Shown here one piece after another: positions 6,443-16,527 of a stretch of 34,857 nt of DNA. The stretch is from Geitlerinema sp. PCC 9228. Lineage in GTDB: Bacteria > Cyanobacteriota > Cyanobacteriia > Cyanobacteriales > PCC-9228. The translations under genes were made by a program, and so were the position numbers. Positions within the stretch are counted from its first letter, which is position 1, and each line of letters starts with the position of its first letter. Below the pieces are notes generated by a model. It searched no databases and was not told where the DNA came from. It worked only from the letters and a program-made list of their open reading frames with translations. The stretch is from NCBI RefSeq assembly GCF_001870905.1, contig NZ_LNDC01000111.1:1-34857 (forward strand), written 5' to 3'.

Positions 6443-8722
6443 TTGCGTTTTGGTGTTTCCCATGTTAGCGAACAACCACAATCGAAAGTGCCAATTGTTT
6501 CTTCCGAATTGTTGGGTTCCTTTCAGTTCCTGTTGGACCGTACCATGAGACTTCAAGAAAACGATCGTACCCTATCTTCCTTTCGTCAAGAAATTGCCCT
6601 CGTTCGAGAACGCAGCGATCGCATGTATCCTCAATTTTCTCCTGCCGAAACCAGCACAGCGATTATCAATATTAGCGGTCGCCAGCGCATGCTGCTGCAG
6701 CGAACGGCCTTGTTTTGTTCCAAAATTGCCAACCAAAAATCTCCACAAAAACGCCAACAAGATCGCGCACAATTGCGCCAAGCGATCGCGCAAATGGAAA
6801 CTGGTCACCAACAATTGTTGCATGGCGATTCCCACCTCGGATTGCCTGGTATTACCTCCGAAACCATCCGCACCATATACTTTCAACCCCCCTGGGAAGC
6901 GGATGCCAAAATTCGCGCATATATTGCTAATGTCAAAGCCTTTTTAGCCTCTACCGACGAAGAACAAAACGCCGACCATCCCGCTTTAGAACCCATTGTG
7001 CGCGCGGCGACCAGCGAACTGCTTGATATTTTAGACCACCTCGTCAAACAGTACCAACAGGAAATGGACGAGCGCAACCAATCGCTTTTTGAAAAACAAC
7101 AGCAACTCCAGCATCAAAGCACAGAAATTGCTTCCCGCATGTCGCAACTTTACGAGCAAACTTTACAGCAATCGCGCCGGGAACAGTTGGTCAATCAAAT
7201 CACCTACCAAACCCGACAAAGCTTCGATACGGAAACCATTTTAACCGAAACCATTGCCCAACTTCTCGATGCCATGGATGTCGATCGCTGCATCATTCAC
7301 CTGTTAGAAGAAACCAACAGCCAAGCCAGCGCATCCTCTAGCAACCAGCCGGAAGTTCTCGACCAATTTTCCCCCTCCGAAAATCACCAAAAAAGAGAAA
7401 TTACCGCCTTTCGCAAGAAAAATCTATTTGAAGTATGTCGGGAACCGTTTTCTTCTTCCGTAGCTTACTTTGAACCCCGCGGTCCCATTACTGACTGGGT
7501 TATCAAATACCGCCAGTCGGTGGTTATTGCGGATGTGACCCAAGACCCGCGCATCGACCCCAGCAACCAAGAATATCAAAAAGCCAAAATCAAATCTTCG
7601 TTGGTGGTTCCCGTACAAACCCAAGACCGCCTGTACGGAATTTTGTATTTAAATCAATGCGATCGCCAGCGCCAATGGTCGGATAATGACTGTCAATTTG
7701 CCCAATCCGTCGCCGACCACTTAGCCTTATCCATACAACAATCTGACTTGTATGCCCAAGCTAAATTCGCTGCCCAACAAGCACAGGCAAAATCAGAGAA
7801 ACTAAAGCAAGTCTTGTACGAACTCCAAAAAAGTCAAACCCAACTGGTGCAAGCTGAAAAAATGTCCAGCCTGGGGCAAACCGTCGCCGGTCTGGCCCAT
7901 GAAATTAACAATCCCATTAACTTTATCTACGGAAATATCGCCCACACCCAGGACTATGTCAGCGACTTGCTATCTCTGTTGCAGGCATACCAAACCCACT
8001 ATCCCGACCCGGTACCAGAAATTCAAGACCTCATGGAAAACATAGAACTCAATTACATTTGCGACGATTTAGACAAAATTTTCCATTCCATGCGCACCGG
8101 GGCCGACCGCATTCGCGAATTGGTGTTGTCCTTGCGTAATTTCTCCCGTTTGGATCAAGCTGAAATCAAAGAAGTAGACTTGCACGAAGGGATTGAAAGT
8201 ACGCTTTTAATTTTAAGCCACCGCCTCAAACCCAGAAAAGAACTGGACATGAGAAAAGTTCAAATAATAAAAGAATATGGAGATATCCCGCCAGTAGCCT
8301 GTTTTGCCGGACAGTTAAATCAAGTATTTATGAACATACTGAGCAATGCCATCGATGCTTTAGAAAGCCAACGGTACCAAAACAGCGGTTCCCAGGCAGA
8401 TACCCCCACCATTTGGATTCGCACGCAAGTACAAGACGGCGAGTATGTTTGCGTACGCATTGCTGACAACGGTCCGGGAATTCCCAAACAAGCACAATCT
8501 TCCTTATTCGATCCATTTTTCACCACCAAACCCGTAGGTCAGGGAACTGGGTTGGGATTGTCCATTAGCTATCAAATCGTGGTAGAAAAACACGGTGGCG
8601 AAATTTGGTGTGAATCTCCAGCCACTGGGGAAAGGGGAACGGCATTTGCTATCAAACTGCCAATTCGCAGCGATCGCGAAGGCAACCCAAAAACCCCTCC
8701 TCGACCCAGCTGGTCTGCCTAA
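6443..8722 (+). CDS. Soluble histidine kinase with PilJ-like N-terminal domain and GAF domain
   Basis: The 759-residue protein has, in order: a PilJ N-terminal-type sensor (about 60-190, with the family motif INISGRQRMLLQR), a coiled coil (about 200-245), a GAF domain (about 250-430), a second coiled coil, a dimerisation/phospho-acceptor helix with His486 in GLAHEINNPINF, and an HATPase domain (about 590-745) with the N-box FMNILSNAIDAL, IADNGPGIP, DPFFTTKP and GTGLGLSI. No transmembrane helix is seen, so it should act in the cytoplasm. There is no receiver domain and no adjacent response regulator. The frame opens with TTG at 6443; the first in-frame ATG is at 6545 and would still keep the whole PilJ-like domain, so the start is uncertain. 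Its transmitter half closely resembles that of the kinase at 9446. Confidence 0.88.
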   Translation: MRFGVSHVSEQPQSKVPIVSSELLGSFQFLLDRTMRLQENDRTLSSFRQEIALVRERSDRMYPQFSPAETSTAIINISGRQRMLLQRTALFCSKIANQKSPQKRQQDRAQLRQAIAQMETGHQQLLHGDSHLGLPGITSETIRTIYFQPPWEADAKIRAYIANVKAFLASTDEEQNADHPALEPIVRAATSELLDILDHLVKQYQQEMDERNQSLFEKQQQLQHQSTEIASRMSQLYEQTLQQSRREQLVNQITYQTRQSFDTETILTETIAQLLDAMDVDRCIIHLLEETNSQASASSSNQPEVLDQFSPSENHQKREITAFRKKNLFEVCREPFSSSVAYFEPRGPITDWVIKYRQSVVIADVTQDPRIDPSNQEYQKAKIKSSLVVPVQTQDRLYGILYLNQCDRQRQWSDNDCQFAQSVADHLALSIQQSDLYAQAKFAAQQAQAKSEKLKQVLYELQKSQTQLVQAEKMSSLGQTVAGLAHEINNPINFIYGNIAHTQDYVSDLLSLLQAYQTHYPDPVPEIQDLMENIELNYICDDLDKIFHSMRTGADRIRELVLSLRNFSRLDQAEIKEVDLHEGIESTLLILSHRLKPRKELDMRKVQIIKEYGDIPPVACFAGQLNQVFMNILSNAIDALESQRYQNSGSQADTPTIWIRTQVQDGEYVCVRIADNGPGIPKQAQSSLFDPFFTTKPVGQGTGLGLSISYQIVVEKHGGEIWCESPATGERGTAFAIKLPIRSDREGNPKTPPRPSWSA

Positions 8723-8789
8723 GCCGGTTGGCTTCACAAAAAGTGTGGTGGCATGGAAGAATCAAGATGTGTCACTATAAGAAAGTCTG

Positions 8790-9310
8790 GTGCGATTCGT
8801 TCTCGCCAAAAGCTGAAAGGAAACAACCTAAAGCGTGAGCGAGACAAGGAGTCAGAAGCGAACGATTGGGGTAATACCCAATATATGCTGACAGACTCTC
8901 GATGACTTGGAAGATAAGGTCGAAAGTAGCATTACATCCAAAACGATTGGAAACAATACGGTGAGACTGGAATGGCGGGATATCGACTGGAAACAGGTCG
9001 AACGTCACGTCTTCCACCTGCAAAAACGAATCGGAAACAGAAAGGGAAATGTGCCCATTGTGGACTGACATTCCGTGAGGAAGATATAATGGAAGTCGAC
9101 CAAACCATTGTCCCAAAAGCCCTAGGCGGAAAGGACAAATACGACAACCTACAACTTCTTCACAAACATTGCCACGATGTAAAAACTGCCAACGATGGTA
9201 GTCTTGGTACTTGTGACAAGAGCCAAGTTGTTGAGTCCCCGGATGATGCGAAAGTATCACGTCCGGTTTTGAAGACGAGTCAGGTGGGTGACTGTCTGGC
9301 TTAGTTTAAC
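8790..9310 (+). mobile_element. Decayed group II intron with two internal deletions
   Basis: The copy starts with the group II 5' consensus GTGCG and matches the intron at 34203 for its first 60 bases. It then jumps from GAGACAAG to GAGTCAGAAGCG, losing about 435 nt of domain I-III RNA relative to that copy. The start region of the reverse transcriptase follows, then a second junction near 9015-9035 fuses it to the C-terminal HNH segment. The end keeps recognisable domain V (the hairpin around GATGCGAAAGTATC at about 9246-9259, then GGTTTTGAAGACGAG) and domain VI ending TTAGTTTAAC. It lies in the gap between two kinase genes, so it does not interrupt a visible gene. With most of domain I gone it should not self-splice. 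Confidence 0.85.
8931..9304 (+). pseudogene. Remnant of group II intron reverse transcriptase/maturase (N-terminus plus HNH domain only)
   Basis: From 8931 the sequence encodes TSKTIGNNTVRLEWRDIDW and a short continuation, which is the conserved N-terminus of intron-encoded reverse transcriptases, but the start codon reads ATT. All of the reverse transcriptase and maturase (X) domains are missing. A different reading frame then carries the C-terminal HNH region, with KGKCAHCGLTF, VPKALGGKDKYDNLQLLH and HCHDVKTANDG. The expected first catalytic histidine (DH) is DQ here. The 9024-9304 stretch remains open to the intron end, but it has lost its normal start and a catalytic residue. Confidence 0.85.
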
Positions 9311-9424
9311 CCAAATGGCCAACATTTGCATTCGCCATGGGGGTAGACGTGCTGGGTTTTCTGTTTTTCTGCAAACAGCAGGTAAAGAATAGGCTGTGCA
9401 ACACCTTAACTTGCCCACACCCAC

Positions 9425-9430
9425 AGGAGG
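9425..9430 (+). promoter_or_regulatory. Ribosome-binding site with long spacing
   Basis: AGGAGG is the only strong Shine-Dalgarno sequence before the kinase start at 9446. The spacer is 15 nt, longer than usual, and no alternative in-frame ATG or GTG lies closer. Confidence 0.5.
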
Positions 9431-9445
9431 AAAAATCCCCAACCC

Positions 9446-12205
9446 ATGACTGGTTCCACAGTAAAGGTAGGCATTTTACACGCTCTCAGCGGCACCATGG
9501 CGATTAGCGAAACTCCCCTCAAAGATGCCGCCATGATGGCGATCGCGGAAATCAATGCTGCCGGTGGCGTTCTAGGCAAGCAAATCCAACCCACCATCGA
9601 AGACGGGGAATCGGCAGTGATGGGTTTTGCCTTGCAAGCCAAAAAACTCATCGAACAAGAACGGGTGGCAGCGTTGTTCGGCTGTTGGACTTCTTCCTGT
9701 CGCAAAGCCGTATTGCCAATTGTGGAAAAATACAATAGCCAGCTGTGGTATCCCGTACAGTACGAAGGTTTGGAACGTTCCCCCAATATTTTTTACACTG
9801 GTATGTGTCCCAACCAACAAATCGAACCGGCGGTCCGTTGGTTGCTAGAACAAGGAAAAACCCACTTGTATTTGCTGGGGTCAGATTATGTATTTCCGCG
9901 AACGGCGAATAAAATTGTGAAAGCCACTGTCAAGCAAATGGGGGGAACCATCCTCGCTGAAGAATATTTGCCGTTGGGGGAAAAACAGTGCGCCGCCGCG
10001 ATCGCGCACATTCAAGAAAAGCAACCCGACGCTGTTTTGAGTACCCTCAACGGAGACACCAACATAGCCTTTTACCAACAATACCACCAAGCCGGGATTT
10101 CTGCGGCCGAGATTCCCATTTTGGCTTTGAGCGTTGCCGAACCCACCTTGCAGGAAATTGGGGAAGCCGCTGCCGGTCACTACGCCGCTTGGAGTTACTT
10201 CCAAAGCTTGGATATCCCCGAAAACCATCATTTTATTCGCAACTTTCGCCACCGCTACGGCAGCGATCGCGTCACCAGTGACCCCATCGTCTCAGCCTAT
10301 ACTCAGGTTTATTTATGGAAACAAGCTGTAGAAGCCGCCGGCAGCTTTCACATCGATGACATTCGTCCAGCCGCCAGCGAACAAAAAGTTTTATCTCCCA
10401 GCGGTTGGGTTTATTTACGTCAAAACCAACACATAGAAAAACCCTTTCGCATCGGCAAAATTCGCCGCAACGGACAATTTGAAATTGTCAGCACCAGGGA
10501 AACCCCCATCAAACCGCTGCCTTTTCTAGGAGCAGACGAACAAAACCATTTATTTAGACCAGTGGTCGTCGATCTGTTGGGAGAAGTTTCCCATTCTATC
10601 CAGTATAGCTGCCAGTTAGAGGATAAATCCCGCCAGTTAGAAAACGCGATCGCCGAACTGCAAAGCAAAAACGAACAATTGCAAGCTACCCAAGCAGAAC
10701 TGGTGCGATCGCAGCAGCGGCTGCGGGAATTTCAAGACCGACAGGAAGTCTTGCGGCGTCGCCTGTACCACCAAATTCGTTGTTCTCTAGATTTGGATAC
10801 AGTTTTGCAAACGACAGTCCAGGAAATTCGCCAGCTATTGCAGATCGATATTTGTCAGTTTGTGTGGTACGAACGGGATGAAAACGGCCGAATTCTCGGC
10901 TTTCGCCACGCCGCCGTGGATAGTCTGGCAGATCCTCCTCCCAATTGTCAGCTGCTGGCGGCAAATCCCGATTTAGGAGAAATTTTATTAAATAACTATT
11001 GTTTGCAAATTGATGACTTACATTCCGGAGAAGTCCTGGCAAAAACCCCACAGCAAGCTTTTTTACAACACGGTATCCAATCACTTTTGGTTACTTCCGT
11101 GCGTCCCAACTGCAGCCAAGATGGGTTGCTTCTGTGCCAGCATCGCCAAGGAAATAGGGTCTGGGAAATTGATGAAATCGAACTCATGTTGGAAATTCGC
11201 GAACAACTCGCGATCGCCATCGACCACGCTCACCTGTACCGCCAAAGCCGAGAATCAGAGATTGCCGCCAACTCTCAGGCACAGCGTCTCAGCCAAGTTT
11301 TGCAAGAATTGCAAGACAAACAGGCACAACTCATTCAAGCCGAAAAAATGTCCAGTTTGGGACAAATGGTAGCGGGCATCGCTCACGAAATCAACAACCC
11401 CGTTAATTTCATCAGCGGCAATTTAACCTATGCAGAAAACTATTTTTTCGACCTCCTGCAGCTACTAGGCACTTACCAGGAACGCTGCCAGATCCAAGAC
11501 CCGCGAATCCAACAGCAAATTGCCGAAATTGACTTAGATTTTATTAAACAAGACTTTCCCGAAATTATCGCTTCCATGCAAAGCGGTACCGAACGCATCC
11601 AAGGCTTGGTGCAATCGCTCAAAAGATTTTCGCATCTGGACGAGGCGGAAAACAAAGCAGTTGACCTGCACCACGGCATCGACAGTACCTTACAAATCTT
11701 GCAGTATCGCCTGCAAAGCCAACCGGGACGACCGGAAATTCGGGTGGTTCGCGAATACGGCAATTTGCCTGTGGTAGAATGCTACCCCGGACAGATGAAT
11801 CAAGTGTATCTTAATATTATTAGCAATGCCATCGATGCGGTGGATGCCTGGCTAGAAACCACCAGCGATCGCCACCAGCGGATTCCCACCATTTGGATTC
11901 GTACGCAACGAACCGCCGATGATTGGGTGTCTATTTGCATTGCTGATAACGGGGTAGGGATTTCTCCCCAAATCCAAAACCGCTTGTTCGACCCGTTTTT
12001 CACCACCAAACCCGTGGGAAAAGGAACGGGATTGGGACTGGCCATTTGCTACCAGATTGTCGTTCAAAGGCATCAAGGCAAAATTTGGTGTTCCTCGACA
12101 GCCGGTGAAGGGAGCGAATTTTGGATTCAAATCCCCCGGACCAACCGCTACCAGCATGATGAGGGAACAACCAACGACAACCAATCGAGCCACTTTTTTT
12201 CCTAA
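9446..12205 (+). CDS. Histidine kinase with UrtA/AmiC-like amide-binding domain and GAF domain
   Basis: The protein has 919 residues. Residues about 5-380 form a type I periplasmic-binding fold of the urea/short-chain-amide group (VGILHALSGTMAISE, DGESAVMGFALQAKKLI, FGCWTSSCRKAVLPI, WYPVQYEGLE, YLLGSDYVFPR, STLNGDTN). A coiled coil (about 385-435), a GAF domain (about 440-600) and a kinase core follow, with His647 in GIAHEINNPVNF, N-box YLNIISNAIDAV, IADNGVGIS and GTGLGLAI. The binding domain starts at residue 5 with no signal peptide, and no transmembrane helix separates it from the kinase, so it should sense a cytosolic ligand as AmiC does in Pseudomonas. The ligand (urea, an amide or a branched-chain amino acid) is inferred only from the fold. 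The transporter gene begins 33 bp downstream. Confidence 0.9.
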   Translation: MTGSTVKVGILHALSGTMAISETPLKDAAMMAIAEINAAGGVLGKQIQPTIEDGESAVMGFALQAKKLIEQERVAALFGCWTSSCRKAVLPIVEKYNSQLWYPVQYEGLERSPNIFYTGMCPNQQIEPAVRWLLEQGKTHLYLLGSDYVFPRTANKIVKATVKQMGGTILAEEYLPLGEKQCAAAIAHIQEKQPDAVLSTLNGDTNIAFYQQYHQAGISAAEIPILALSVAEPTLQEIGEAAAGHYAAWSYFQSLDIPENHHFIRNFRHRYGSDRVTSDPIVSAYTQVYLWKQAVEAAGSFHIDDIRPAASEQKVLSPSGWVYLRQNQHIEKPFRIGKIRRNGQFEIVSTRETPIKPLPFLGADEQNHLFRPVVVDLLGEVSHSIQYSCQLEDKSRQLENAIAELQSKNEQLQATQAELVRSQQRLREFQDRQEVLRRRLYHQIRCSLDLDTVLQTTVQEIRQLLQIDICQFVWYERDENGRILGFRHAAVDSLADPPPNCQLLAANPDLGEILLNNYCLQIDDLHSGEVLAKTPQQAFLQHGIQSLLVTSVRPNCSQDGLLLCQHRQGNRVWEIDEIELMLEIREQLAIAIDHAHLYRQSRESEIAANSQAQRLSQVLQELQDKQAQLIQAEKMSSLGQMVAGIAHEINNPVNFISGNLTYAENYFFDLLQLLGTYQERCQIQDPRIQQQIAEIDLDFIKQDFPEIIASMQSGTERIQGLVQSLKRFSHLDEAENKAVDLHHGIDSTLQILQYRLQSQPGRPEIRVVREYGNLPVVECYPGQMNQVYLNIISNAIDAVDAWLETTSDRHQRIPTIWIRTQRTADDWVSICIADNGVGISPQIQNRLFDPFFTTKPVGKGTGLGLAICYQIVVQRHQGKIWCSSTAGEGSEFWIQIPRTNRYQHDEGTTNDNQSSHFFS

Positions 12206-12238
12206 CACCAACACCGAGAACAACCCCAGGGTAGCTTC

Positions 12239-13714
12239 ATGCAAGACAAACTCCATCCCACCGTTAAATTTGCCTATGGTGCTGGCGTTATGGGTGGGGC
12301 CATGACCACCAATATTTTAGCCTTCTTTGCTTTATTTTTTCTGACCAATGTTGCTGGTTTGGATCCTGCCTTAGCAGGCAGCGTCTTGCTGGTTGGCAAT
12401 ATTTGGGATGCCTTTAACGATCCCCTCATTGGCACCCTCAGCGATCGCTGCGATCGCTTTTTGCCTCCCAACATTATCCACCGCTGGGGAAAACGCTACC
12501 CCTGGATGCTGGCTGGTGGCATTTCCCTGGGAATTGCCTTCTTTCTGGTGTGGTTTATTCCCCCTTTTGAGAAAGATTGGCAAATGTTTGCCTACTACAG
12601 TTTCGTTGCTATTTTGTTTTTCAGTGCCTATACCTCAGTCATGCTACCAGCTTCGGCTTTGGCACCGGAACTCACCCGAGACTACGACGAACGTACCAGT
12701 TTGATGAGCTTTCGTTCTGCCTTTAGCATTGGTGGTGGCATGTGCGGTTTGCTACTGGCAAAAAGCATATTCGCTGTCATGGCAACTGGACCGGAACGCT
12801 ATTTGGTCTTGGGGGCCATTGGCGGCATGTTCGCGATCGTGCCGACTTATTTTAGCATTTGGGGCACCTATCCGCGATTTCAGAAAGTACGCTACCAACA
12901 GCCTCCCCAAGATGCCAAACGGTTGCCCTTCAAACAGCAAGTGAAAACAATTCTCAGCAACCGTCCCTATTTATTGGTTATCGGTATCTATTTGTGTTCC
13001 TGGCTGGCAGCGCAACTAACCGCTTCGATTCTGCCTTATTTTGTGGTTAACTGGATGAAACTATCGGAAAATCACTTGGTGCAAGCCGCCATTGCCGTTC
13101 AGGGAACCGCACTGGCAGCAGTATTTGGTTGGAGTGTCATCGGCAGGCGTTTTGGGAAAAAGATCGTTTATTTGCTGGGGGTTCCTTTGTGGTTAATTGC
13201 ACAAGTGGGTCTTTTGTTACTCCAACCCGACAGCGTTGGCTGGATGTACTTTTTCGCCGTTATGGTAGGCATTGGCTTATCTACCGCCTATCTCGTCCCG
13301 TGGTCCATGTTTCCCGATGTGGTCGATTACGACGAACTGCTTACTGGCGAACGTCGCGAAGGGATTTTCTACGGTTTTACCGTATTTTTGGAAAAATTGG
13401 GGACCGCGATCGCTTTATTTTTGGTAGGTAGAATTCTCGCGATCGCTGGCTTTATCTCCATTCCCCGCGGCGAAACTGCACCCCCGCCACAGCCGGAATC
13501 GGCGATGCTGGCTATTCGCTTAATTATCAGTCCCTTACCAGCCATTTTACTAATTTTTGGATTAATTTTAGCTTATTTCTATCCTATTAGCCGGGAAGTT
13601 TATCAAGAAATCTATTTGAAACTGATGGCACGCCGCCGGGGAGAGGAGAGAGAATGGGACCTCGGGAGTTGGGATTCTGGAATAGGAAGAAGGAAAAGAA
13701 AAAGAAAGTCGTAA
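12239..13714 (+). CDS. MelB-type (GPH family) sugar/cation symporter
   Basis: The 491-residue polytopic protein has about 12 hydrophobic segments and MFS_2/GPH family marks: FAYGAGVMGGAMTTN near the start, NIWDAFNDPLIGTLSDR after helix 2 with the conserved acidic residues, RWGKRYPWML, and late LVPWSMFPDVVDYDELLTGERREGIFYG. Family members take up glycosides, pentosides or hexuronides with Na+ or H+. The substrate here cannot be read from sequence. The gene follows the amide-binding kinase by 33 bp and probably shares its transcript. The C-terminus ends in an unusual Arg/Lys-rich tail (GRRKRKRKS). It converges on the c-di-GMP gene, leaving 35 bp between stop codons. Confidence 0.88.
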   Translation: MQDKLHPTVKFAYGAGVMGGAMTTNILAFFALFFLTNVAGLDPALAGSVLLVGNIWDAFNDPLIGTLSDRCDRFLPPNIIHRWGKRYPWMLAGGISLGIAFFLVWFIPPFEKDWQMFAYYSFVAILFFSAYTSVMLPASALAPELTRDYDERTSLMSFRSAFSIGGGMCGLLLAKSIFAVMATGPERYLVLGAIGGMFAIVPTYFSIWGTYPRFQKVRYQQPPQDAKRLPFKQQVKTILSNRPYLLVIGIYLCSWLAAQLTASILPYFVVNWMKLSENHLVQAAIAVQGTALAAVFGWSVIGRRFGKKIVYLLGVPLWLIAQVGLLLLQPDSVGWMYFFAVMVGIGLSTAYLVPWSMFPDVVDYDELLTGERREGIFYGFTVFLEKLGTAIALFLVGRILAIAGFISIPRGETAPPPQPESAMLAIRLIISPLPAILLIFGLILAYFYPISREVYQEIYLKLMARRRGEEREWDLGSWDSGIGRRKRKRKS

Positions 13715-13749
13715 ATTGGTTGGTGTTTCTCCCCTGCTTCCACACTCCC

Positions 13750-16527
13750 CTACAAATGCAAATTTCCCGAAGCCAGCAATTGCGCGATCGCAGAATTAGC
13801 TTCCGGTCGGGAAAATAGATACCCCTGACCGTACTCGCATCCTAAATTTTGTAAATGAGCCAACTGCTCCAATGTTTCGATCCCCTCGGCAATAATTTCC
13901 ATATTTAAATTGCGTGCCAAAACCACAATCGTGTGCATGACCGATTCGCTTTCGGTTTCGATACCAATGCGTCTGACGAAAGAGCGATCGATTTTTAACG
14001 TATCGAAAGGAAACGAATGTAGGTAGCTCAAAGAAGAATATCCCGTCCCAAAATCGTCAATACAAATACTCAGTTTCCGTGCCTTCAACTGCTCTAAAAT
14101 TCTAATAATCTGTTGCGTATTTTCCACCAAAACACTTTCCGTAATTTCTAATTTTAAATTTTGGGGGTCAATGCCAGTGGTATTTAAAATACTATCAATT
14201 TGTTCGATAAAATTAGGCTGCTTGAGTTGCATGGCAGAAATATTCACGCTCACCGTGAGGGGAAACGAAATTTGATATGCCTGCTGCCACGCTCTAATTT
14301 GCTGGCAAGTTTCGTACAAAACCCACATTCCCAACGAAGAAATCAACCCAATTTCCTCGGCAAGGGGAATAAACTCTGCCGGCGAAATAAAGCCTTGCAA
14401 AGGATGTTGCCAGCGTAGCAGTGCTTCAAAACCGCTCAAACGGCGATCGCTTATAGAAACAATTGGCTGGTAGTATACCATGAGTTCTTGATTGTCTAAA
14501 GCACGTCGCAAATCCAAATCGAGTTGAAACTTGCGCGTTGCTTCCGCTTGCATTTGTTCGTCAAAAACAACATAATTATTGGCTGTATCTTGAATTTGAG
14601 CGCTATGCATTGCCGTATCGGCAGCTTGCAAAAAACTTTCGGCATCAATATTGGGAAGCGAACTCAAAACCACCCCAATACTTGCCGTAGTAAAAATTTC
14701 GTGACCGGAGAGATGAAACGGTTTGACCAATTCATTTTGAATTTGCTGGCAAATATGAATAGCATCGCTATGTTCGGCAACCGTTTCCAAAATTATGGCA
14801 AACTCATCCCCTTCAATTCTAGCCAGCATGGCTGGGGTTGGCGAATAGGATTCCAAACGTCTGGCAACGGCCATACAAAGTTGTTTGGCAATATTATGGC
14901 CGAGGCTGTATTTAATAAATTGAAACCGGTCTAAAGAAAGATAGAATAAAGCAAACGTTCCCCGCTCCTGATTTTGATATTCCTGCAACATTTGTTCCAG
15001 CCGTTTGAGGAACAATTCCGTCTTGGGAAGTTGGGTAACCGCATCGTAGAAAGCATACCGCCACATGCGGTCTTGGATGCTCTGGTGTTCGGTAATATCT
15101 TTGACCATCGACAAAACCCCGGTAAAATTGCCTTTGGCATCCCGCAGGGAAGTATTGTGCCACTCGCAGGTAATCAAATGCCCATCTTTGGTAATATTTT
15201 TATTAACGCTACGCGCGCTAAAATGACCCGATTTCAAGGTTTGAAAAATTTCCTCGACTTCACTTTGTAAAGCAGCCGGAACAATGAGCTCGTAGGGATG
15301 TTTTCCCAAGACTTCTGATTTGGAATACCCAAAAATTTCGGCGGCGGCTGGGTTCCAATCGGTAAATTTCATTTGGCGATCGTGTAAAATACAACCAATG
15401 GGCATGCGTTCGATTTGCAGTTGCAGGCGTTCTTGCAGTTGTTTGGTGGTTTCGTATAGCTGTGCGTTTAAAATCGCCATGGCACAGCGTTCGGCGGTAA
15501 TTTCTAACAGGTGAATTTCCTGTTCGCTGTAGGGATGGAGGTCGTGCCACTCAATTTGCAAAACCCCAACGAAATTCCCATTTCTTTTTAAAGGTACCCC
15601 CATCCAAGACCGGGTTTTTTCGCTAGCAGCACGGAATCGCTTGTCTCGCTGGATATCTTCAATATAAATGGGTTGGTTTTGCGTTGCGATCGCATTGGCT
15701 AATCCCCGGATGGAAATTTGTCCGTATCTTTCTAATTTTCTCTCGGGAATTCCCACACCGCAGCGGGGATATAAAGTACCGTTGTCATAAAGGAAAATAA
15801 TCGCCGCATCGGCAGCAATCACAGCCGCAATTCGTTGCAACAAAACATGCAACAAATCGTCCAATTCTAACGTACTAATAGCATTAGCAGTTACCGCACT
15901 TAAGGCTTGTAGGGAATGGGTTTGCCGCCGTAAATCTTCTAATAATTGCTTGCGTTCGGTGATATCGCGGGCAATCCCAATGATTCCTTTGGGTTGTCCC
16001 TGACGAGAACGCCAAATATATTTGTTAGAGAGAAAAGTTTTGGTCTCTTGAGAAAGCTGTACGGTTTCTTCCAAAGTTTGTGGCTGACCAGATTCTAAAA
16101 TTGAACGCTCGTTTTCGACAATTTCTTGAGCTTCTGCCTCGCCAAATAAATCGCGATCGCTTTTTCCAACCACTTCTTCGGTAGTGCAGTTGAGAGCTTT
16201 TGCGGTGGCTGTATTGCAAAGAATGTAGCGACCTTGCCAATTTTTTACGAAAATAGCATCAGGAGTGCCCTCAATAATATTGAGTAGCAAATTATTAGCT
16301 TGTTCCAGCGATCGCCGCGACCGACGAATGAGTTCGTATAAAAGTCCAGTGACCACTAATGTATAGACCCATCCCTTAATTGTTTGCAGTCTCGCCGTCA
16401 CTTCAACGCGGTCGGTGATGCCTAAAATTAACTGGTCGGAGAATAAAATCCACAAACTGCTTACCACTAGGTAGATGAAAGCAATTTTCAACGCCGTAAA
16501 CTTTTTGCGGTTGCGTTTGGGAAACAT
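13750..16527 (-). CDS. Membrane PAS-GAF-PAS-GGDEF-EAL protein, probable c-di-GMP phosphodiesterase
   Basis: The 925-residue protein has two N-terminal transmembrane helices (about 12-33 and 51-67), a PAS domain (about 80-195, ending GIARDITERK), GAF (about 210-365), a second PAS (about 370-490), GGDEF (about 495-655) and EAL (about 670-915). The EAL domain is canonical: GFEALLRWQHP, ITESVLVEN, DDFGTGYSSLSYL, KIDRSFV and AEGIET. The GGDEF domain looks inactive: the signature reads EGDEF, the metal-binding FIDLDRF motif reads YLSLDRF, and the entry motif DxLTGLPNR reads DAVTQLPKT. It therefore probably hydrolyses c-di-GMP, with the GGDEF part regulatory. The signal could be light, redox or a small ligand through PAS/GAF; no chromophore cysteine is claimed. 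Confidence 0.9.
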   Translation of the reverse strand: MFPKRNRKKFTALKIAFIYLVVSSLWILFSDQLILGITDRVEVTARLQTIKGWVYTLVVTGLLYELIRRSRRSLEQANNLLLNIIEGTPDAIFVKNWQGRYILCNTATAKALNCTTEEVVGKSDRDLFGEAEAQEIVENERSILESGQPQTLEETVQLSQETKTFLSNKYIWRSRQGQPKGIIGIARDITERKQLLEDLRRQTHSLQALSAVTANAISTLELDDLLHVLLQRIAAVIAADAAIIFLYDNGTLYPRCGVGIPERKLERYGQISIRGLANAIATQNQPIYIEDIQRDKRFRAASEKTRSWMGVPLKRNGNFVGVLQIEWHDLHPYSEQEIHLLEITAERCAMAILNAQLYETTKQLQERLQLQIERMPIGCILHDRQMKFTDWNPAAAEIFGYSKSEVLGKHPYELIVPAALQSEVEEIFQTLKSGHFSARSVNKNITKDGHLITCEWHNTSLRDAKGNFTGVLSMVKDITEHQSIQDRMWRYAFYDAVTQLPKTELFLKRLEQMLQEYQNQERGTFALFYLSLDRFQFIKYSLGHNIAKQLCMAVARRLESYSPTPAMLARIEGDEFAIILETVAEHSDAIHICQQIQNELVKPFHLSGHEIFTTASIGVVLSSLPNIDAESFLQAADTAMHSAQIQDTANNYVVFDEQMQAEATRKFQLDLDLRRALDNQELMVYYQPIVSISDRRLSGFEALLRWQHPLQGFISPAEFIPLAEEIGLISSLGMWVLYETCQQIRAWQQAYQISFPLTVSVNISAMQLKQPNFIEQIDSILNTTGIDPQNLKLEITESVLVENTQQIIRILEQLKARKLSICIDDFGTGYSSLSYLHSFPFDTLKIDRSFVRRIGIETESESVMHTIVVLARNLNMEIIAEGIETLEQLAHLQNLGCEYGQGYLFSRPEANSAIAQLLASGNLHL

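Follow-up and report, generated by a model that had tools for sequence, protein, structure and literature searches.

The 919-aa protein encoded at positions 9446 to 12205 of the window, the 34,857-nucleotide stretch of Geitlerinema sp. PCC 9228 DNA, is probably a soluble sensor histidine kinase that has, as its receptor, a urea-binding domain of the UrtA type lacking an export signal. Urea is our best guess for its ligand, predicted from the binding pocket and from the surroundings of its nearest homologue. The gene, its domains and the transporter gene that follows it are as follows:

9446..12205, + strand: UrtA-GAF-histidine kinase reading frame, ATG start, 919 aa in one protein, cytosolic as judged by sequence
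9461..10534, + strand: UrtA-type (Peripla_BP_5) domain, residues 6-363, from Pfam, pocket alignment and Foldseek
10547..10783, + strand: long helical linker, residues 368-446, predicted in the AlphaFold2 model
10790..11221, + strand: GAF domain, residues 449-592, from Pfam
11357..11536, + strand: HisKA-like region, residues 638-697, with AHEINNP at 646, from Pfam just under the cut-off and from the motif
11792..12142, + strand: HATPase_c kinase domain, residues 783-899, from Pfam, with intact N, G1, F and G2 motifs
12239..13714, + strand: GPH/MelB-type MFS symporter (MFS_2), from Pfam, starting 33 bp after the kinase stop codon

The Pfam scores of the fusion are far beyond chance. Peripla_BP_5 (PF13433) matches residues 6-363 at 483.8 bits against a cut-off of 27, Peripla_BP_6 matches residues 5-343, the GAF domain scores 37.7 bits and HATPase_c reaches 91.1 bits, above its cut-off, while HisKA, at 25.7 bits, lies 1.2 under its cut-off of 26.9. 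The H, N, G1, F and G2 motifs of histidine kinases are found at 646, 790, 834, 848 and 858, and we infer that H647 of AHEINNP is the phosphoacceptor. The full-length AlphaFold2 model is of moderate confidence (mean pLDDT 66.8, pTM 0.41), with pLDDT under 50 for residues 358-395. Thus, the domain order given in the preliminary description, a UrtA/AmiC-like binding protein fused to GAF and kinase, is borne out by the Pfam domains together with the kinase motifs.

This fusion has many relatives. The receptor domain was matched in 335 of 388 genomes of the class at E <= 1e-30, and many of the listed matches lie in frames of roughly the size of leader-bearing UrtA, some 430-470 aa. Our fusion set was defined as the listed matches with an open frame of at least 577 aa, 37 besides that of the window, one of which was read as locus L006; adding L005 and another fusion from L060 gives at least 39 cyanobacterial fusions besides the window protein, and weaker ones may exist. 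At least 13 of the others among the matches listed carry a kinase closely similar to that of the window (phmmer, 311 bits or more).

Judged by sequence, the absence of both a membrane helix and a leader places the protein in the cytosol. In a hydropathy scan with 19-residue windows, which is not a trained topology predictor, the highest mean was 1.23 against a threshold of 1.6 and no membrane helix was called; an MFS control gave 11 stretches at the same threshold. No signal peptide was found. Moreover, an in-frame stop lies 13 codons 5' of the initiating Met, leaving 12 codons, which is too few for a leader, and with no ATG, GTG or TTG between that stop and the Met, a signal peptide missed through a wrongly assigned start is ruled out. 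The RR-type leader motif was present in all 23 leader-bearing UrtA proteins compared and in none of 42 fusions, a count that includes the window protein and L053, which is cut at its 5' end. With no helix by hydropathy and with the frame closed 13 codons upstream, the fusion is, by sequence, soluble and cytosolic; its H, N and G boxes and the lack of a membrane helix are what is expected of a soluble sensor histidine kinase, and its ligand should therefore be cytosolic. The earlier claims that the protein has neither signal peptide nor membrane helix and that it reads a cytosolic ligand are both supported in this way.

As to what this ligand may be, the closest solved structure to the receptor domain is 8tg1 (430 bits), titled as a periplasmic urea-binding protein, followed by three cyanobacterial UrtA proteins (7s6e, 8hic and 7s6f, 336-348 bits), with AmiC (1pea) at 177 bits. 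Foldseek ranked the structures likewise when run on the predicted model, the identity being 46-53% with the urea-binding proteins and 29% with AmiC. On the NCBI UrtA model TIGR03407 the window protein scores 482.5 against a cut-off of 492.75, which the fusion at L006 exceeds (511.6).

PMC10392092 places nine residues near urea in the UrtA of Prochlorococcus MIT 9313 (W120, S122, Y141, Q144, E146, Y190, F192, N246 and S274), and reports that mutation at every one of these positions except 192 abolished or reduced urea binding. The Kd of this UrtA for urea is given there as 141 nM. At the equivalent positions the window protein has W81, S83, Y102, Q105, E107, Y148, F150, N202 and S229, that is, 9/9 identical to that published pocket. 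All nine are also found in 23/23 leader-bearing UrtA proteins compared and in 24 of the 39 other cyanobacterial fusions among the matches listed. AmiC, in an alignment read by eye, has Y, S, Y, P, E, Y, Y, V and T, sharing 4/9. Of the 164 columns without variation in leader-bearing UrtA, the window protein retains 131, so that the chance of retaining all nine is P = 0.12; taken alone, its pocket fits urea and speaks against a specificity like that of AmiC, the retention being not significant and no proof. Urea is nevertheless better supported than an amide, because the receptor is closer to UrtA than to AmiC and its pocket is of the urea type. An AmiC-type amide receptor is thus disfavoured by both pocket and scores, and of the amide sensing on AmiC logic that had been proposed earlier, the idea of a binding protein acting as sensor holds and the amide ligand is less well supported than urea.

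The strongest evidence for urea, though it is one locus of one MAG, comes from L006, in a Pseudanabaenaceae MAG, which is the closest homologue among the fusions in the matches listed, both by tree path and by its identity of about 60% over the domain. There an Hsp70 gene comes first, followed by urtE (327 bits against a cut-off of 285.8), the UrtA-kinase fusion, ureD, ureA and ureB, with the fusion starting 37 bp after urtE and 0 bp separating it from ureD. A partial urease-alpha match lies at the end of G310:C249, taken by its length and coordinates as the contig of L006. L071 (G098), a homologue with 66% identity, has WD40 and Uma2 genes as neighbours in place of urea genes. Altogether, with UrtE, UreD, UreA and UreB as the probes, urea genes were found beside 1 of the 39 other cyanobacterial fusions among the matches listed, whose flanks vary and are in some cases short.

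The tree took in 63 of 65 rows, with L060_4588 and L065 left out. In it, the window receptor falls outside the leader-bearing UrtA set, on a long branch (0.8), and it groups with L006 and L071 at an SH-aLRT support of 83, under the 95 mark. Such a long branch would also suit a different reading, to which we give a small chance, namely that the receptor domain is degenerate or binds a protein partner and that GAF is the true sensor. The GAF domain is indeed real by its Pfam match, and 10 of the 13 other kinase fusions match it (best stretch 54-98 bits). Against this reading, all nine pocket residues are retained in the window protein, and no GAF match was obtained in the remaining three, L006, L071 and L073, of which the first lies beside urea genes; in these the receptor reaches the kinase without a GAF domain.

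That Geitlerinema sp. PCC 9228 itself deals with urea is suggested by another contig of its genome, where a separate, leader-bearing UrtA gene is followed by urtB, C, D and E with ureG nearby, and by a urease-alpha fragment truncated where its contig ends. From these genes urea uptake and use are likely, and urea is a plausible metabolite. Urease alpha is present in 31 of 34 fusion-bearing genomes, own genome included (30/30 of those of good quality), and in 327 of 388 genomes of the class sample (295/334 of good quality). This difference is weak, and urease presence was dropped as a discriminating test, the enzyme being too common in the class sample.

Pocket changes within the family raise the question of whether all of its members bind the same compound. 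One or two such changes occur in seven of the 13 fusions with a similar kinase (in MIT 9313 numbering, Y190I in L076, L078, L080, L081 and L083, Q144E in L072, and Y190H with F192Y in L079), which indicates that ligand specificity drifts in the family. In L076 and L083 the fusion is located after an ABC permease/ATPase pair and a RidA-like (Ribonuc_L-PSP) gene, so that the changed pocket and the neighbours together suggest a different ligand. The wider family seems to reach amides as well, since a UrtBC-like transporter adjoins amidase genes in Bradyrhizobium, according to PMC3098086. These observations speak for a cytosolic sensor kinase of the same kind in which the ligand is another small nitrogen compound, such as formamide, acetamide or a ureide. 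For the window protein we hold this to be a secondary option, with roughly one chance in a handful, as its own urea pocket is unmodified and L006, its nearest homologue, is flanked by urea genes on both sides.

Urea sensing by a UrtA-type domain may not be limited to kinases. The output domains were scanned in 25 fusions, comprising 24 of the 26 cyanobacterial ones outside the 13 (L060_4588 and L065 left out) and L023 of Brevibacillus. SpoIIE was matched in 16 (L053, L055, L056, L074 and L075 included), which makes the fusion to a SpoIIE-type PP2C phosphatase the most frequent of the other architectures in the set that was read. HATPase_c was found in three, GGDEF in two (one with EAL), a nucleotide cyclase domain in one and a sigma-54 activator in one, and no output domain was matched in L077, which is cut by a contig end. 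Perhaps, then, leaderless UrtA domains make up a modular class of cytosolic urea receptors in cyanobacteria, with outputs that range from histidine kinases and SpoIIE-type PP2C phosphatases to c-di-GMP enzymes and an adenylate cyclase. Internal urea would serve as a general nitrogen signal for several outputs, and sub-branches would be re-tuned to other small ligands by pocket changes; we consider this broader proposal somewhat short of an even bet.

Not every UrtA fusion is clearly soluble, given the hydrophobic stretches of four of them. In L066 (9282-12209) and L067 (2864-5737), a leaderless UrtA domain with an intact urea pocket precedes two strong hydrophobic stretches, followed in L066 by HAMP, kinase and receiver; these two form one fully supported set with leader-bearing UrtA in the tree. 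One or two borderline or strong stretches follow the domain in L065 and L085. In Brevibacillus, L019 (7785-10877) and L023 (7543-10014) carry a UrtA-like domain with a pocket resembling that of AmiC: the two share F192Y and N246V, and L019 has W120Y besides. The domain of L019 is joined to a sigma-54 activator and L023 is likely the sigma-54 case among the 25 scanned fusions, so this type is a possible amide-sensing one-component activator.

The symporter gene downstream of the kinase had led the preliminary description to link sensing with transport. Its distance of 33 bp from the kinase gene is confirmed by the reading-frame coordinates, and the position on the same strand is what an amide-sensing kinase coupled to uptake through this MelB-type neighbour would call for. 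Among the 39 fusions in the matches listed, however, 33 have at least 1.6 kb of downstream sequence, and a symporter homologue was found in the flanks of none of them; lack of conservation of the pair was the outcome named beforehand as speaking against the link. At E <= 1e-60, 59 of the 60 genomes of the order contain homologues of the symporter, and in the four other fusion-bearing genomes among these (G051, G123, G277 and G378) the homologues are found on a different contig from the fusion or at a distance from it of more than 3 Mb. GPH symporters are known for sugars and the pocket is not AmiC-like, which weigh further against the coupling. We therefore rejected it, leaving it a very slim chance, and most simply the adjacency is accidental.

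Other genes of the window were inspected as well. Just upstream, at 6443-8722, lies a second histidine kinase with PilJ-like, GAF and kinase domains, the last similar to that of the fusion (321 bits). Between the two kinases there is a small HNH-family gene (8972-9304) that weakly resembles part of the IscB model, at 26 bits against a cut-off of 175, and a PAS-GAF-PAS-GGDEF-EAL protein (13750-16527) is convergent with the symporter. In the Pfam scan of 20 window reading frames, the sole receiver was at 220-1416, 8 kb from the kinase gene, and no ANTAR domain was found. Of the 13 other kinase-fusion loci, four (L005, L071, L079 and L081) have a receiver gene no more than three genes away, in no constant arrangement, and no candidate for the cognate response regulator is named. 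The neighbour scan took in 69 genes from the 13 loci, with 25 of 117 families viewed. The NtcA-like site GTAN8TAC was absent between 8457 and 18117; the whole window has five copies against 2.9 expected, a number reached in 18 of 100 shuffles. A scan of 8700-13900 gave three promoter-like matches against 4.7 expected and 13 terminator-like matches against 7.1 (sd 2.8), the latter mostly inside genes, which makes the scan uninformative.

Returning to the reading of the window protein as a cytosolic urea-sensing kinase, urea that is imported or released by internal nitrogen turnover would close the Venus-flytrap domain, and the kinase dimer would feel this movement by way of the 368-446 helix and then the GAF domain, with a change in its autophosphorylation. 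The phosphate would then pass to a response regulator encoded elsewhere, the likely purpose being to match nitrogen or urea metabolism to how much urea the cell contains. For the ligand step there is support from the pocket and the L006 locus; the remaining steps we infer by analogy with Venus-flytrap receptors and soluble kinases.

Nitrogen control in cyanobacteria is described mainly through 2-oxoglutarate, PII and NtcA. If our reading is true, this control would gain a dedicated input in the form of a direct urea receptor in the cytosol, which would also offer a simple test case of a transport receptor becoming a signalling domain. Such sensors could be hidden under the annotation of urea-transporter binding proteins, and an equivalent annotation warning is given for NasS in PMC3795266. 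In the open-licence PMC literature, searched by titles and the starts of abstracts, we found no account of a UrtA-kinase fusion among the hits listed; subscription papers, hits beyond those listed or database notices could hold one.

Among known systems, UrtA of the UrtABCDE urea ABC transporter (7s6e, 7s6f and 8hic, also 8tg1) shares with the window protein its fold, the nine pocket residues and 46-53% identity. The window protein differs in having no RR-type leader and in its fusion to GAF and kinase, and in its genome the urtABCDE genes, which include a leader-bearing urtA, are on another contig; since export fails without a leader, it is not a UrtA in the transporter sense. AmiC of the AmiC-AmiR antiterminator system (1pea, 1qo0), whose location is cytosolic, shares the use of the binding-protein fold as a sensor, yet it has 29% identity and four of the nine pocket positions, and acts in trans on AmiR. 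NasS of NasS-NasT, according to PMC3795266, is a leaderless, NrtA-like nitrate sensor that retains the ligand residues and is predicted to be cytosolic. It is likewise a leaderless relative of a transporter binding protein serving as a nitrogen sensor, but one related to NrtA, with nitrate as ligand, a separate regulator and no kinase, whereas the window protein is fused in cis and its predicted ligand is urea. Cytosolic binding-protein sensors are thus already known from AmiC and NasS, and what appears to be new here is the fusion in cis to the output, with urea as the predicted ligand.
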